Source: Natrinema sp. SYSU A 869 (lineage in GTDB: Archaea > Halobacteriota > Halobacteria > Halobacteriales > Natrialbaceae). From it: 64,000 bases of DNA. Made by a program: the position numbers and the translations under genes. Below are positions 46,778 through 53,303 of this stretch, piece after piece (positions within the stretch are counted from its first letter, which is position 1; each line of letters starts with the position of its first letter). The notes under the pieces are model-generated. The model was not told the DNA's origin and ran no database searches. It saw only the letters and a program-made list of their open reading frames with translations. The stretch is from contig NZ_CP082249.1 of NCBI RefSeq assembly GCF_019879105.1, forward strand, positions 2,170,001-2,234,000. The letters are read 5' to 3'.

Positions 46778-47186
46778 TAGTTACGGGACACGAGCGCGCT
46801 GATGAGCGTTTCGTCCTTGTGGAGCGTCTCGATCTGGTTTGCCGGTCCGATTACCGTCAGCTTTGCTTCTGTCTCGTCACCCCCATGATACGACCGAGCA
46901 GCGACGAGTCGCGGGTCTCGGACTTGGGATAGGTCTCAATCTCGATCCCATTGAACTCGTCGGGGCTGATCTCGGCCATCGTCACCTCGATGAGTCGGCT
47001 CTCCTCGTCGGGCGTCAGCCCCTCCTCCAGGATGACGATGTTGCCGTCGTGGACGCCGTCCAAGATCATCCTGATCTTCTCCATCGTCGCCATACCGTCC
47101 ATGCGCTCGCCGCTGATCAGATCGATCTGTACACCGTCGGGTGCGTCCGAATCGTCAGCGTTAGTTGCTTTTGGCATCGTAATCAC
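46777..47186 (-). pseudogene. oapB: Origin-associated DUF2073 protein OapB, apparent -1 frameshift near the end
   Basis: The first frame (start 47186) encodes MITMPKATNADDSDAPDGVQ, IDLISGERMDGMATMEKIRM and GLTPDEESRLIEVTMAEISP, then ends early at MGVTRQKQS. One more base near 46869 restores TRQEAKLTVIGPANQIETLH and KDETLISALVSRN. The stop at 46777-46779 then overlaps the oapC start (TAATG). That exact coupling makes an intact gene in nature likely. DUF2073 proteins are archaeal, and the start overlaps oapA by four bases. Molecular function is unknown. Confidence 0.8.
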
Positions 47187-47821
47187 CCGAAGTATTCGGC
47201 GATGTTGTCGTACACTTCGTCCATGTTGTCGCCCTCCTTTGCGGACAGCGGAACGGTCTTGTGCTGTGGGAAGGCGTCCTCGATCCGCTTGACGCTTGAT
47301 TCCTCGAGGTCGGTCTTGTTCGCGAAGATCAGAACGGGAAGATCGCGAGACTCGACGATACCGATCAGCATCGTGTTGACCTGCGTGATCGGATCCTCTG
47401 CGCTATCCAGAACGTAGATGACGCCGTCGACATCCTCTCGCAGCCAGTGCATCGCTTCGGCGACGCCCTCGGTAGCTTCACGGGAGCGGCGAATGGCGTC
47501 ATCTTCGTCCATTTCGTCGGTGAACTCTTCGTAGTCGACCTTCGTCGTCACACCCGGTGTGTCGACGATGTCGATGGTCACCGTCTTGCCGTCCCGTTCG
47601 ATCTCGACATTTTCTTTTCTGCGTGCGCGACGTGTCTCGTGCGGGACGTGACTCTCCGCCCCGACCGCGTCACCAGTCCAGTCACGCGCGATACGGTTCG
47701 CGAGCGTCGTCTTGCCAGCATTCGGCGGACCGTAAATACCGATTCGTTTGGGCTCCTGTTCCGAAAACAGGCGGTCCGTAGCCCGGGAAATACTATCTTT
47801 GAGTTCTGTGAACAGTCCCAT
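47183..47821 (-). CDS. oapA: Origin-associated Era/Der-like GTPase OapA
   Basis: The 212-residue form starts MGLFTELKDSISRATDRLFS. It has G1 GPPNAGKTTLANRIA, a G2 threonine region, G3 DTPGVTT, G4 NKTDL and the G5-like SAKEG. The Era/EngB-like GTPase is the first gene of oapABC, pointing away from the origin. A TATA-like CTTAAGTG lies about 55 bp upstream. An upstream ATG at 47878 would add 19 unusual residues and is rejected. GTP-dependent control of initiation is a hypothesis only. Confidence 0.85.
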   Translation of the reverse strand: MGLFTELKDSISRATDRLFSEQEPKRIGIYGPPNAGKTTLANRIARDWTGDAVGAESHVPHETRRARRKENVEIERDGKTVTIDIVDTPGVTTKVDYEEFTDEMDEDDAIRRSREATEGVAEAMHWLREDVDGVIYVLDSAEDPITQVNTMLIGIVESRDLPVLIFANKTDLEESSVKRIEDAFPQHKTVPLSAKEGDNMDEVYDNIAEYFG

Positions 47822-48140: not shown

Positions 48141-48166
48141 CCCCCACCCCTTCGTTTCGAGTGGAG
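48141..48166 (-). other. Origin recognition box (ORB 1)
   Basis: On the minus strand it reads CTCCACTCGAAACGAAGGGG followed by TGGGGG. Compared with ORB 2 it differs at only a few places. The G-run points away from the A+T-rich segment. Orc1/Cdc6 binding is known for such boxes and inferred here. Confidence 0.8.
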
Positions 48167-48291
48167 ATTGTCGAGGGCACGGGTGGGAACACGAACTGGC
48201 GGACCGATGTCGGGAGGAAGTTTGCCCCGTATTTCGACTCGAGACGGTTCTCAGGCCAACTGTGAGGCTGAATTCGTCGATAGAGACGTTT

Positions 48292-48419
48292 CTAGTAACT
48301 CAGAAGGCTATCTAGCAAGATAGACGTCTCCAAGTGATGATTCTAGCAGGAACTAGTAAATACAATCTCAGCTCTAGTAAGACTAGCTGTTTTGCTAGTG
48401 CTACGGTTACTGTTTCTAG
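48292..48419. other. A+T-rich, CTAG-dense segment, candidate duplex unwinding element
   Basis: Eight CTAG tetranucleotides occur in 128 bases (48292, 48312, 48343, 48353, 48374, 48383, 48395, 48416), mostly as TTCTAG or CTAGYA. The segment is much richer in A+T than flanking genes and lies between the inverted ORBs, where unwinding is expected. Confidence 0.65.
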
Positions 48420-48482
48420 TCTACCCAAATAAATCTTCCCGTGATAAATTGCTGTCGAACCCCCCACCCACCCTTTTGACTC

Positions 48483-48510
48483 GTTCCACCCGAAACGAAG
48501 GGGTGGGGGG
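48483..48510 (+). other. Origin recognition box (ORB 2)
   Basis: GTTCCACCCGAAACGAAGGG followed by GTGGGGGG. It is inverted relative to ORB 1 with the G-run pointing outwards. A separate C-rich stretch just upstream (GAACCCCCCACCCACCC) may be part of a second, overlapping G-string. Confidence 0.8.
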
Positions 48511-49104
48511 ATTCGACGATCCGTCAGATGGTATCCCATACCACATTTCCATAATCAATCCTCGAGCCGGTCTTCTCATCGTCTCGGAACTGAGACGACA
48601 CGCGTCCCGATGACCCATCCCGGTCACGCATCACGGAGACACCATGGAGAGACGTAATATCACGGAAATACGTAGGGGAGATTCGTCCCTATTTATTCAA
48701 TTTTCCAATCTATTACCATGTCCCCGCAAAACCATCAGAAAGACGTCAGTAATAGAACGGGACGAACTCGAGACTACGTCATGAGATACTGTTTTGTCAG
48801 CCTATCGTTATCTTTCGATTGAGCATCTCAATCGTTCATCCCGCGATAGCCGATCATCAGATGTCACGGTCTCTTTGCTGGTATAACACTCGCTGACAAT
48901 CTACTACTATGTTACTAACTAGTATTGTTTTGTGCAACGCGTGGACCCAATCGATACTAGTCTACGCTACGACGCTGCAACTACCCCATTAGTTCGAGTG
49001 TCGGCTTTTTCTCGAGCGGATCCAATCAGCTGACAACGATTCACCGGGAGAAAGAGAGAGTAGAACCCGATCGTGAGAAGACAATTGGCTCCACACTGAA
49101 CGCC

Positions 49105-49291: not shown

Positions 49292-51076
49292 ATGTCAGAC
49301 GATAACTCAGAGATCACTGGTTCGGACGAGGTCGATGGAACGAGCGGATTCTCGACGAACTTCGAGAACGCCGATCTCGGCGACGAAGAGTCGAATCAGG
49401 GACTGTTCGACGACCTGCTCAGCGGCGAACCGATCTTCGAGAACAAGGAAGTCCTCCGCCCGTCCTATACGCCACACGAACTCCCCCACCGGAGCGATCA
49501 GATCAACAAGATGGCGACGATCCTCGTCGCTGCGCTCCGCGGTGAAACGCCGTCAAACATTCTCATCTACGGGAAAACCGGGACCGGCAAGACTGCGAGC
49601 GCCAAGTTCGTCAGTAAGGAACTCGAGAGCACCTCCCAGAAGTACTCCGTTCCGTGTGACGTCGAGTACATCAACTGTGAGGTCACTGATACCCAGTACC
49701 GCGTACTCGCACAACTCGCGAACAAGTTCATCGAGAAGAACAAAGCACGGATCGACGACCGCGTCGCGGAACTCGAGTCGCTGCTGGACGATCTCGACGA
49801 GTACGACGCCGACGCGGCGCGTCGCAGTACCGACGTAATCGAGTCCAGTACTGAAGCGGACGACCAAACGGCGTCGGACCCCTTCGATTTCGCCTCGAGC
49901 GAGGAGACGGAGCCGGACACAGATATTTCGACTGGAACCGATACCGGTGCTATGTCGGGCGGTTCTCCACTCGAAGAAGGGGGGTCTTCTGGCGGGCCAG
50001 CGGATTCCGCCGACCCATCGCCGTCCGCCGAGGAGACTGGACTGGCGGACGTTAACGGCACCGATCACGACGATGCGACGACCGATCCGACTGCGCCCCC
50101 ACCGGACCATCCTCTCGAGTCGACGGCGTTCGAGACCCGTGCCGAGGTCGACGACCGAATCACCGAACTCGAGGACGACAAGGACTCGTTCGAAGAGGTA
50201 CCAATGACCGGGTGGCCGACGGATCGGGTCTACAGCGTCTTCTTCGACGCCGTCGATTACGACGAGCGTGTCGTCGTCATCATGTTGGACGAGATCGACA
50301 AACTCGTCGAGAAGAGCGGCGACGACACGCTCTATAACCTCTCGCGGATGAACTCCGAGCTGGAGAACTCGCGGGTGTCAATCATCGGTATTTCGAACGA
50401 TCTGAAGTTCACCGATTTCCTCGATCCGCGGGTCAAGTCCTCGCTGGGTGAAGAGGAAATCGTCTTCCCGCCCTACGACGCGAATCAGCTGCGGGACATC
50501 CTCAAACACCGCTCGGAGGTTGCGTTCAAGGGCAACGCGCTCTCCGATGACGTGATCCCGTTGTGTGCGGCCTTCGCCGCACAGGAACACGGCGACGCGC
50601 GACGTGCGCTGGATCTCCTGCGGACCGCAGGCGAACTGGCCGAACGGTCCCAGGCCGAAACGATCGTCGAGGAACACGTGCGTCAGGCCCAGGACAAAAT
50701 TGAACTCGATCGCGTCGTCGAGGTCGTCCGCACACTGCCTACCCAGAGCAAACTCGTCCTCTTCGCGATCATCCTCCTCGAGAAAAACGGCGTCCACAGC
50801 ATCAACACGGGCGAGGTGTTCAACATCTACAAGCGCCTCTGCGAGGAGATCGACGCGGACGTGCTGACCCAGCGGCGCGTGACCGATCTGATCAGCGAAC
50901 TCGATATGCTCGGGATCGTCAACGCCGTCGTCGTCTCGAAGGGACGGTACGGCCGGACCAAGGAAATCAGCCTTTCCGTTCCACTCGAAGAGACGGAAGC
51001 GGTCTTACTGAGCGACTCCAGACTGAGCGACATCGACGACGTCCAGCCGTTCGTCCAGGCGCGGTTCGAGAACTGA
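49292..51076 (+). CDS. orc1: Orc1/Cdc6 replication initiator
   Basis: This 594-residue AAA+ protein has Walker A GKTGTGKT (94-101), Walker B VVVIMLDEIDKL (about 327-338), sensor 1 IIGISNDL and sensor 2 GDARRALDLL. A C-terminal winged helix (about 500-590, TQRRVTDLISELDMLGIVNA) follows. Between Walker A and B is an acidic low-complexity insert (about 165-290), longer than in most archaeal Orc1 proteins but known in haloarchaea. It binds ORBs and loads MCM. It is divergent from oapABC across the origin. The insert's DNA carries an ORB-like motif (49963-49990). Confidence 0.92.
   Translation: MSDDNSEITGSDEVDGTSGFSTNFENADLGDEESNQGLFDDLLSGEPIFENKEVLRPSYTPHELPHRSDQINKMATILVAALRGETPSNILIYGKTGTGKTASAKFVSKELESTSQKYSVPCDVEYINCEVTDTQYRVLAQLANKFIEKNKARIDDRVAELESLLDDLDEYDADAARRSTDVIESSTEADDQTASDPFDFASSEETEPDTDISTGTDTGAMSGGSPLEEGGSSGGPADSADPSPSAEETGLADVNGTDHDDATTDPTAPPPDHPLESTAFETRAEVDDRITELEDDKDSFEEVPMTGWPTDRVYSVFFDAVDYDERVVVIMLDEIDKLVEKSGDDTLYNLSRMNSELENSRVSIIGISNDLKFTDFLDPRVKSSLGEEEIVFPPYDANQLRDILKHRSEVAFKGNALSDDVIPLCAAFAAQEHGDARRALDLLRTAGELAERSQAETIVEEHVRQAQDKIELDRVVEVVRTLPTQSKLVLFAIILLEKNGVHSINTGEVFNIYKRLCEEIDADVLTQRRVTDLISELDMLGIVNAVVVSKGRYGRTKEISLSVPLEETEAVLLSDSRLSDIDDVQPFVQARFEN
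49963..49990 (+). other. ORB-like motif inside the orc1 coding region
   Basis: CTCCACTCGAAGAAGGGGGG, followed by TCTTCT, lies in the low-complexity insert of orc1. A short dyad half TTTCGACTGGAAC precedes it at 49926-49938 in opposite orientation. A closely similar pair lies in the DP1 gene. Confidence 0.5.
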
Positions 51077-51328: not shown

Positions 51329-52294
51329 TCAGTTTCGATACCGGCCAATCGCGACCGTGGCCCCGGCTCCGGCACTGGCGATACCGACGATGCCGGCGAG
51401 CTCACCGTCCAGTCCGGGACCAGCGGTGTCTGGACCGGCGGGCGTCGGTGTCGTTGCCGGTGTCGGTCCCTGCAGCGACGCGCTCGAGGGTGACGTCGGA
51501 GCGAGCATCCCGCCGAGGATCTTGTCGAATGTCAGGCGCACGTGGCCGAGCCACGGGATCCGGAACATGGCTTTGCCCGTGACCCACTCGGGTTTGACGA
51601 TGTCGCTAATGCCGTTTCCGTACTGATCGTATCCGCCGTTGGCGTCTCCCTTCGTAACGAACCCGGCGTGCTCTGCGGGACAGGTCGCGACCTCGTTGCA
51701 GGTCGCGTCGCCGACGATTTCCTCGCTGGCTTTGGTATCGACCCAGTGTTCACCTTCTTCGACCCAGAAGTGGGCGCGATGGATCACCGGTGTTTCCGCT
51801 GGATTGCCGTTTGGTCGGTAGATTATCACGTCGCCGGGATTGCCGAACTTCTCGTAGCTGCTCTCCTGGCCGTTCTCGAGAGTGACGACACCGGTTCCGG
51901 CGACGGCGTTGTCACCGGCGAATCGGCCCTCGTCTGCGACGAAGATCAGATCTCCTTTGTGCATGTTCGGTTCCATGCTGCCGCTCTCGACGGCGACGAG
52001 TGGGGGCCAGATACCGCTGACGCCGAACAGGAGGAGGCCAACGACGGCGACGATGGCGACGCTACTCAGGATATCCCGCGCCACCATGACGGTCTCGTCG
52101 TCGGTTCTGAGGAACCAGCGGAGGACCCCGTCGTCGTCGATCGTCACGCCGTCGGCGTCGGAATCGGGGGCGTCCCGGGATGGTGTCTCGGATGCAGGCG
52201 GCGTTCGTGAACTGCCGGCGCTTCGATCCTGCGTACGATCGTCGTCGCCGGAATCGTCCGGGGGTTTCCCGGCGCTAGAACCGCTCATCGTCAC
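51329..52294 (-). CDS. Signal peptidase I, archaeal type, copy 1
   Basis: This 321-residue protein has a disordered acidic N-terminus, a membrane segment (ILSSVAIVAVVGLLLFGVSG), the catalytic serine in VAVESGSMEPNMHKGD, the catalytic histidine in TPVIHRAHFWVEEGEHW, and aspartate in TKGDANGGYDQYG. Ser-His-Asp chemistry is typical of archaeal type I peptidases, which remove signal peptides outside the membrane. A C-terminal segment (LAGIVGIASAGAGATVAIG) forms a second anchor. The next gene upstream is a paralogue. Confidence 0.9.
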   Translation of the reverse strand: MTMSGSSAGKPPDDSGDDDRTQDRSAGSSRTPPASETPSRDAPDSDADGVTIDDDGVLRWFLRTDDETVMVARDILSSVAIVAVVGLLLFGVSGIWPPLVAVESGSMEPNMHKGDLIFVADEGRFAGDNAVAGTGVVTLENGQESSYEKFGNPGDVIIYRPNGNPAETPVIHRAHFWVEEGEHWVDTKASEEIVGDATCNEVATCPAEHAGFVTKGDANGGYDQYGNGISDIVKPEWVTGKAMFRIPWLGHVRLTFDKILGGMLAPTSPSSASLQGPTPATTPTPAGPDTAGPGLDGELAGIVGIASAGAGATVAIGRYRN

Positions 52295-52355: not shown

Positions 52356-53303
52356 TCACGGGCCGCGTTCCCCGGCGGCCATTCCGAACAGCACGAGCGC
52401 GATTACGCCTGTCGCGACGAAGGTAACTGTCGGTCCCACCCCAGTCGCTGCGCCCGCCGAACCGACCGCCAGTCGAACCCCTCCGACCATCGGAGCCCGA
52501 ATCATCGCTTTCCCGGTAACCCAGTTGGGGCTGACGATCGTCGTGTCCGCCCCCGAACGCGGCAGTTGGTCGTAGCCGGAATTGGCGTCGCCTTTCGTGA
52601 CGAATCCGTCGTGGGGTGCCGGGCAGGTGACAATATCGTTGCAGGTCGCGCCATTCAGCGAACCGGGATCGGCTTTGGTCTCGACCCATCGTTCGCCTTT
52701 TTCGACCCAGAAGTGGGCCCGATGAATCGTCGGCGTCTTCGTCGGATCGCCGTTCGGCACGAAGACGATGACGTCGCCGGAACTGGCGAATTTCTCGTGG
52801 CCGCTTGCTCGCCCGCTTTCGAGGGTGGCGATGCCGGTTTCGGCGACGGCATTCTCGCCGGCGAACCGATCGTCATCGACGACGAAGACGAGGTCCCCCT
52901 CCCGGATGTTCGGCTCCATGCTACCGCTCTCGACGGCGACGAACGGCGGCCACGTCCCGCTGACGCCGAATAGGAGGAGTCCGACGACTGTGATGACTCC
53001 GAGACACATCACGGTATCTCGACACGCAGTGACTCGCCAGTCGTCGGTCTCGAGCAGCCAGCGGCCGACGCCGTCCTCGATCGCCGGCTCACCGTCGTTG
53101 CGGGTTGCGCGCTTGTGATCGTCACCGCTCACTCGGTCTCGCGTTCCGGGGTTAGATGCCCGGTCGTCACGTTCGGGCACGCGGTCACGCGATTCGGGCG
53201 CGCGGCTCCCGGGTTCGTCTCGCCGAGACGGCTCCGGCCCCGAGCGTTCGTCGCGGGTTCCAGATCGGTTGTCGTCCTGCTCGCCGCCGTCAGGACCGTC
53301 CAT
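52356..53303 (-). CDS. Signal peptidase I, archaeal type, copy 2
   Basis: This 315-residue paralogue has the same order: acidic charged N-terminus, membrane segment (GVITVVGLLLFGVSGTWPP), VAVESGSMEPNIREGDLVFV, PTIHRAHFWVEKGERWVETK and TKGDANSGYDQ, and a C-terminal anchor. The active residues are all present. It lies 62 bases upstream of copy 1 in the same direction, so a tandem duplication is evident. The N-terminal region is rich in Arg-Asp-Glu and differs between copies, which may tune substrates. Confidence 0.9.
   Translation of the reverse strand: MDGPDGGEQDDNRSGTRDERSGPEPSRRDEPGSRAPESRDRVPERDDRASNPGTRDRVSGDDHKRATRNDGEPAIEDGVGRWLLETDDWRVTACRDTVMCLGVITVVGLLLFGVSGTWPPFVAVESGSMEPNIREGDLVFVVDDDRFAGENAVAETGIATLESGRASGHEKFASSGDVIVFVPNGDPTKTPTIHRAHFWVEKGERWVETKADPGSLNGATCNDIVTCPAPHDGFVTKGDANSGYDQLPRSGADTTIVSPNWVTGKAMIRAPMVGGVRLAVGSAGAATGVGPTVTFVATGVIALVLFGMAAGERGP

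Follow-up and report, generated by a model that had tools for sequence, protein, structure and literature searches.

A conserved array of CTAG sites in the predicted oriC1 of Natrinema sp. SYSU A 869 as a candidate methylation-sensitive control element

The window analyzed here is the whole stretch of 64,000 nucleotides (G000:C3:2170001-2234000) from the main contig of the 5.67-Mb genome of Natrinema sp. SYSU A 869; its small GTPase gene is 97 to 99% identical to those of several Natrinema species, which places the window in the Natrinema group. Judged from its sequence, the intergenic region of ~1.5 kb between this GTPase gene and orc1/cdc6 is oriC1, with the small GTPase gene followed by inverted ORBs with G-strings and then by orc1/cdc6. 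The adjoining orc1/cdc6 is of the conserved class (NF001625, 652 bits against a cutoff of 501 in a profile search), and the inverted G-string ORBs flank an A+T-rich segment (61% A+T at 48280-48435). The GTPase gene, which probably corresponds to the neighbor called oapA at haloarchaeal oriC1, was present in 253 of 253 genomes of the order. ORBs and G-strings are defined as in earlier work (PMC3528665, PMC3936714). Sequences of oriC1 were collected from 80 named relatives and ~100 further genomes, and the conservation counts refer to an alignment of 49 Natrialbaceae origins. The features are as follows.

47183..47821, minus strand: oapA-like small GTPase gene, oriC1 neighbor (ORF; small_GTP domain TIGR00231)
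48141..48165, minus strand: left ORB with G-string CCCCCACCCCTTCGTTTCGAGTGGA (sequence; conserved in the alignment of relatives)
48292..48298, plus strand: S1, CTAGTAA (CTAG in 41/49 Natrialbaceae; YAA in 41/41 intact copies)
48312..48318, plus strand: CTAG within a 20-bp segment present in part of the family only (14/49 genomes)
48343..48349, plus strand: S2 (CTAG in 44/49)
48353..48359, plus strand: S3, CTAGTAA (42/49; YAA in 41/42 intact copies)
48374..48380, plus strand: S4, CTAGTAA (18/49 in the same column, 28/49 shifted by one base)
48383..48386, plus strand: CTAG nearly private to the Natrinema sp. SYSU A 869 lineage (2/49)
48392..48398, minus strand: S5, inverted (TTGCTAG, which is CTAGCAA on the minus strand; 42/49)
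48404..48433, plus strand: conserved non-CTAG block CGGTTACTGTTTC...ATAAA adjoining the array (column information up to 2.0 bits)
48416..48419, plus strand: CTAG mostly of Natrinema (10/49 genomes)
48484..48510, plus strand: right ORB with G-string TTCCACCCGAAACGAAGGGGTGGGGGG (sequence; comparison of relatives)
48919..48960, plus strand: two further CTAG outside the ORB-to-ORB segment (not in the conserved array)
49292..51076, plus strand: orc1/cdc6 initiator gene (ORC1-type DNA replication protein; NF001625, TIGR02928)

The encoded Orc1 protein has 594 amino acids, and a long acidic insertion at approximately residues 150 to 295 splits its TIGR02928 match. Downstream of orc1, two adjacent and similar signal-peptidase-like ORFs (51329-52294 and 52356-53303 of the window, minus strand) apparently represent a tandem duplication. 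In most genomes of one Halorubrum-type genus of Haloferacaceae (L162-L175, L203, L212), the GTPase gene lies ~9 to 13 kb from oriC1/orc1 and is not adjacent to it.

CTAG is found at positions 48292, 48312, 48343, 48353, 48374, 48383, 48395, 48416, 48919, and 48957. The initial annotation, made from the sequence of this region, had described eight CTAG within 128 bases and two more nearby, and had called the tetranucleotide usually rare in haloarchaeal genomes. All ten had been placed correctly, eight of them at 48292-48419 in the A+T-rich oriC1 core between the inverted ORBs, and CTAG is depleted in the window, since 35 copies were observed against a shuffle expectation of 100.7; the rate was 0.49/kb in an 800-kb sample spread evenly over this chromosome and divided into 150-bp windows. 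Within the 156-bp segment at 48280-48435, eight CTAG were found where dinucleotide shuffles of the segment itself gave 2.6 (P = 0.0006). A search of the whole genome for CTAG triplets with gaps of ≤30 bp returned nine places, of which oriC1 was the largest and densest. A similar density in other A+T-rich regions, named by the initial annotation as evidence against a special feature, was looked for and was absent from the 800-kb sample, in which no 150-bp window held more than three CTAG. A+T-richness was rejected as the cause of the cluster: A+T-rich windows of the sample stayed at or below that maximum, and TTAA and TATA were depleted. As had also been proposed, several sites have the form CTAGYA on one strand or the other (six within the cluster of eight, and eight over the full set of ten).

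Comparison with relatives demonstrated that the layout is ordered as well as dense. Among the 49 Natrialbaceae, CTAG was kept at S1, S2, S3, S4, and S5 in 41, 44, 42, 46, and 42 genomes, respectively. The distance from S2 to S3 was 10 bp in 42 of 42 cases; that from S1 to S2 was 31 bp, or 51 bp where the 20-bp segment bearing one more CTAG is present; and S3 and S5 were ~42 bp apart, with S4 moving by one base between them. Mean column information was 1.53 bits at CTAG and 1.28 bits at the YAA extension, against 0.65 bits elsewhere. Five positions kept in 41 to 46 of 49 genomes, a fixed spacing, and a near-invariant CTAGYAA at two sites argue that the oriC1 CTAG cluster is under selection. Saliphagus was considered as an arrayless member of the family and rejected, its oriC1 having sites 21, 20, and 49 bp apart. 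The additional CTAG at 48919 and 48957, which had been reported with the cluster, are present but were rejected as members of the array; in BLASTN searches against all collected relatives' loci, the stretch that holds them matched only Natrinema sp. SYSU A 869. The block at 48404-48433 was conserved in Natrialbaceae to the same degree as the CTAG sites, and similar TRTTGTTT and ATAAA motifs recur in other families about as far from the right ORB.

In the ORB-to-ORB segments of both Natrialbaceae and Haloarculaceae-type groups, CTAG exceeded its shuffle expectation more than any other tetranucleotide did. Segments of 48 Natrialbaceae held 302 copies against 95.6 expected from shuffles, and those of 22 Haloarculaceae-type origins held 126 against 33.9; the mean count per segment was 6.3 in Natrialbaceae (2.1 expected) and 6.1 in Haloarculaceae (1.6 expected). 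Several other methylase-bearing families had two to four per segment, with 0.5 to 1.5 expected. The Haloarculaceae thus have counts like those of Natrialbaceae at different positions, as would be expected if CTAG itself is selected. In Natrialbaceae, the array spacings of 20, 31, 10, 21, and 21 bp give a period peak at 10.25 to 10.5 bp. Helical phasing was absent from 42 origins outside the family (P = 0.77) and was therefore rejected as a general property. CTAGYA accounted for 74% of Natrialbaceae array sites, compared to 20% of genomic CTAG on the Natrinema sp. SYSU A 869 chromosome and at most 26% in each other family with >20 sites; this background-like frequency led us to reject the idea that CTAGYAA marks haloarchaeal origins in general. 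Because phasing and CTAGYA excess were confined to Natrialbaceae, the sequence comparisons identify CTAG density as the shared property and the order and YAA extension as a trait of that family. Many methylase-bearing families have a single CTAG 35 to 62 bp (~46 bp) before the right ORB (e.g., L013, L016, and L215-L236); it was seen in 9 of 9 members of one family (f8), in 1 of 21 methylase-lacking Haloferacaceae, and not in the Natrinema sp. SYSU A 869 lineage.

Two more groups of four CTAG lie by orc genes of Natrinema sp. SYSU A 869, at C3:546368 and C1:87752, and these also adjoin ORB-like repeats; at C3:546368, the orc gene stands beside a dihydropteroate-synthase-like gene, as read from its ORF. 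At this second origin, which is not homologous to oriC1, 28 of 30 Natrialbaceae upstream regions, that of Natrinema sp. SYSU A 869 among them, had 3 to 11 CTAG per 150 bp. The sites are mostly 4 to 6 bp apart, forming a cluster tighter than that of oriC1 in Natrialbaceae, with no fixed layout and with a sequence that varies by genome. The tightest runs by the second orc gene (L093:3260-3295 and the L328-L356 upstream regions) reached 11 CTAG in 150 bp. The second origin is the strongest sign that selection may keep CTAG itself rather than one fixed array. Outside Natrialbaceae, the comparison by methylase content drew on few orthologues of this origin.

The enzyme that would act on these sites is predicted to be encoded elsewhere on the main contig.

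G000:C3:432589-433641: N4/N6 DNA methylase, Pfam PF01555, with TSPPYPMIEMWD motif (profile search)

This is the one convincing PF01555 methylase of the genome, the sole other PF01555 match being partial; it has an SPPY motif, and its nearest profile families are N4/N6 methylases. It probably belongs to the orphan m4C CTAG methylase family. Of the 50 genomes in the Natrialbaceae set, 46 had a strong homologue and the other four were small metagenome bins; across the order, 232 of 253 genomes had a homologue. Readable absences were all in Haloferacaceae, in agreement with the published patchy distribution of HVO_0794 relatives (PMC6471742). The predicted CTAG specificity draws on this family distribution and on Natrinema methylomes, since 97.0% of CTAG in N. 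versiforme and 98.7% in N. pallidum are modified as m4C (PMC6696651). As in the clusters described by Blow et al., the motif is overrepresented at the origin and retained at orthologous sites, and the genome carries a homologue of the family methylase.

Within Haloferacaceae, segments from 18 genera with the methylase had a mean of 1.6 CTAG and those from 6 genera without it had 0.27 (P = 0.005), with small incomplete metagenome bins (L043, L044, L048, L054, L060, L062, and L071) left out of the comparison. This trend is weak evidence, because the losses are few and related and the Halorubrum-type genus is low in both classes; in addition, lineage and methylase are confounded, because the methylase-lacking genera all belong to one family. 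Within the Halorubrum-type genus, origin CTAG did not differ in the expected direction between genomes with and without the methylase, and four of four methylase-bearing genomes had no CTAG in the segment. Methylase-bearing members of another genus (g46) had zero or one and those of Halorussus zero to two. The methylase is therefore not sufficient for a cluster.

The initial annotation had offered three readings of the cluster: a binding site array, methylation-based control, and a feature of strand opening. The second fits best, and we give about even weight to the proposal that the cluster is a conserved methylation-sensitive control element of oriC1 firing. A high density of CTAG at origins persists in several families and at two origin types that are unrelated, and it falls where the enzyme is lacking; the methylase family is present in the genome. 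The array would place sites for the orphan m4C CTAG methylase in the DNA between the inverted ORBs where the duplex unwinds. Once the fork has passed, the sites would be hemimethylated until the methylase acts, and the hemimethylated state may alter how a factor, or Orc1/MCM, binds to this unwinding segment. Altered binding would then set when the origin can fire again, as in the Dam/SeqA system. In Natrialbaceae, the sites have become an ordered, directional CTAGYAA array as well, which would imply that a sequence-specific reader binds at a site overlapping the methylated bases. For this proposal, the selected sites and the methylase gene come from sequence and m4C from Natrinema relatives, and we infer the effect on replication. 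A more specific form of it, in which an m4C hemimethylation timer operates at several unrelated origins and a dedicated reader binds CTAGYAA in helical phase at Natrialbaceae oriC1, as an independent counterpart of Dam/SeqA, is put forward as a speculative and rather unlikely possibility. Other observations also count against methylation-sensitive control. The near-invariant YAA extension goes beyond what a CTAG methylase would require, and we know of no hemimethylation-reading protein in archaea. Loss of HVO_0794 from H. volcanii causes no growth defect (PMC5867850), although this species survives and replicates even when its origins are absent.

The YAA extension, which fits a sequence-specific reader, would also fit a methylation-independent array. 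In such an array, a nucleoid or origin factor would read CTAGYAA elements aligned along the same side of the helix, so as to shape the origin or open it, and the overlap with the methylase target would be incidental. The nearly complete retention of YAA at S1 and S3, the excess of CTAGYA over the genomic share, the ~10.3-bp spacing, and the inverted S5 all favor a binding array inside Natrialbaceae, and a nucleoid protein that binds an origin element in Sulfolobales offers a precedent (PMC12141716). However, such an array is not a general feature: both the extension and the phasing are lacking in other families, and the second origin is CTAG dense without either; moreover, the phasing within Natrialbaceae is a single observation, having descended from one ancestral layout. 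We regard this explanation as possible, if somewhat doubtful.

That the CTAGs control transcription, as a promoter or operator of orc1, oapA, or a small RNA, and not replication itself, is improbable. In Haloferax strain SVX82, the 75 bp that precede transcription starts are enriched in CTAG regardless of its methylation (PMC11001535), and ATAAA motifs stand beside the array; the array lies between the ORBs, however, at ~870 bp from the start of orc1 and ~470 bp from that of oapA, and the second-origin cluster is also near ORB-like repeats. We think it quite improbable that the flexible TpA steps of CTAG serve DNA mechanics by aiding melting or kinking of the unwinding segment. The position of the cluster in an A+T-rich segment between ORBs would suit that role, but other TpA palindromes are depleted in ORB-to-ORB segments (TTAA at 0.18, TATA at 0.74, and GTAC at 0.39 of shuffle expectation), and CTAG is almost missing from the comparable unwinding segments of Haloferacaceae that lack the methylase. 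Strand opening by composition is accordingly disfavored, since TTAA and TATA are depleted rather than enriched. Relaxed avoidance of CTAG in noncoding A+T-rich DNA, with no function, is highly improbable: CTAG was somewhat commoner in sampled 150-bp windows of ≥60% A+T (mean of 0.46, against 0.06 otherwise), but the maximum elsewhere in the sample and the family-wide positional conservation contradict it.

CTAG clustering at haloarchaeal origins is already known: Blow et al. (2016) described such clusters upstream of orc1/cdc6, together with a conserved orphan m4C methylase, and suggested that they act in replication (PMC4752239, Fig. 6D). The available part of that report agrees with our results in motif, methylase family, location, and the presence of clusters at several origins per genome. 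It treats motif density over 50 kb; relative to that part, the base-level layout, CTAGYAA, helical spacing, and second-origin architecture are described only here, and the tracking of clusters with methylase that it describes is here only a trend with exceptions. Ouellette et al. (2018) doubted a role in H. volcanii, where only oriC2 is CTAG enriched and the deletion strain grows normally (PMC5867850), and Fullmer et al. (2019) did not settle what the methylase does (PMC6471742). In a limited literature search, we found neither the ordered array of CTAGYAA, nor its confinement to a single family, nor the densely packed CTAG of the second origin reported before.

In the literature examined, the function of the orphan CTAG methylase, which is nearly universal in haloarchaea, is an open question, and the sole deletion study used H. 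volcanii, which is origin independent and CTAG enriched only at oriC2. Natrialbaceae and Haloarcula are the right hosts, because their origins carry dense, conserved arrays, and the conserved layout names the exact bases to alter for testing methylation control of chromosome copying. If oriC1 does work in the proposed way, it would be, to our knowledge, the first archaeal chromosome origin found to be gated by methylation.

The oriC of E. coli contains a cluster of GATC, the Dam methylase target, and involves SeqA. In both systems, the target of an orphan methylase is overrepresented at the origin and a hemimethylation timer is plausible; the modification is m6A there and m4C here, CTAG is rare genome-wide, and we know of no SeqA counterpart for the CTAG system. 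The G-rich inverted repeat enhancer of Haloarcula hispanica (PMC3936714) is likewise a cis element between ORBs, in the same origin type, that tunes efficiency, but its sequence is different and CTAG is unmentioned in the main text of that report. The Sulfolobales ucm element and its UBP protein (PMC12141716), although from another archaeal phylum, share with the predicted oriC1 array a non-ORB origin motif and a nucleoid-associated protein as reader, which is a candidate only in the case described here.
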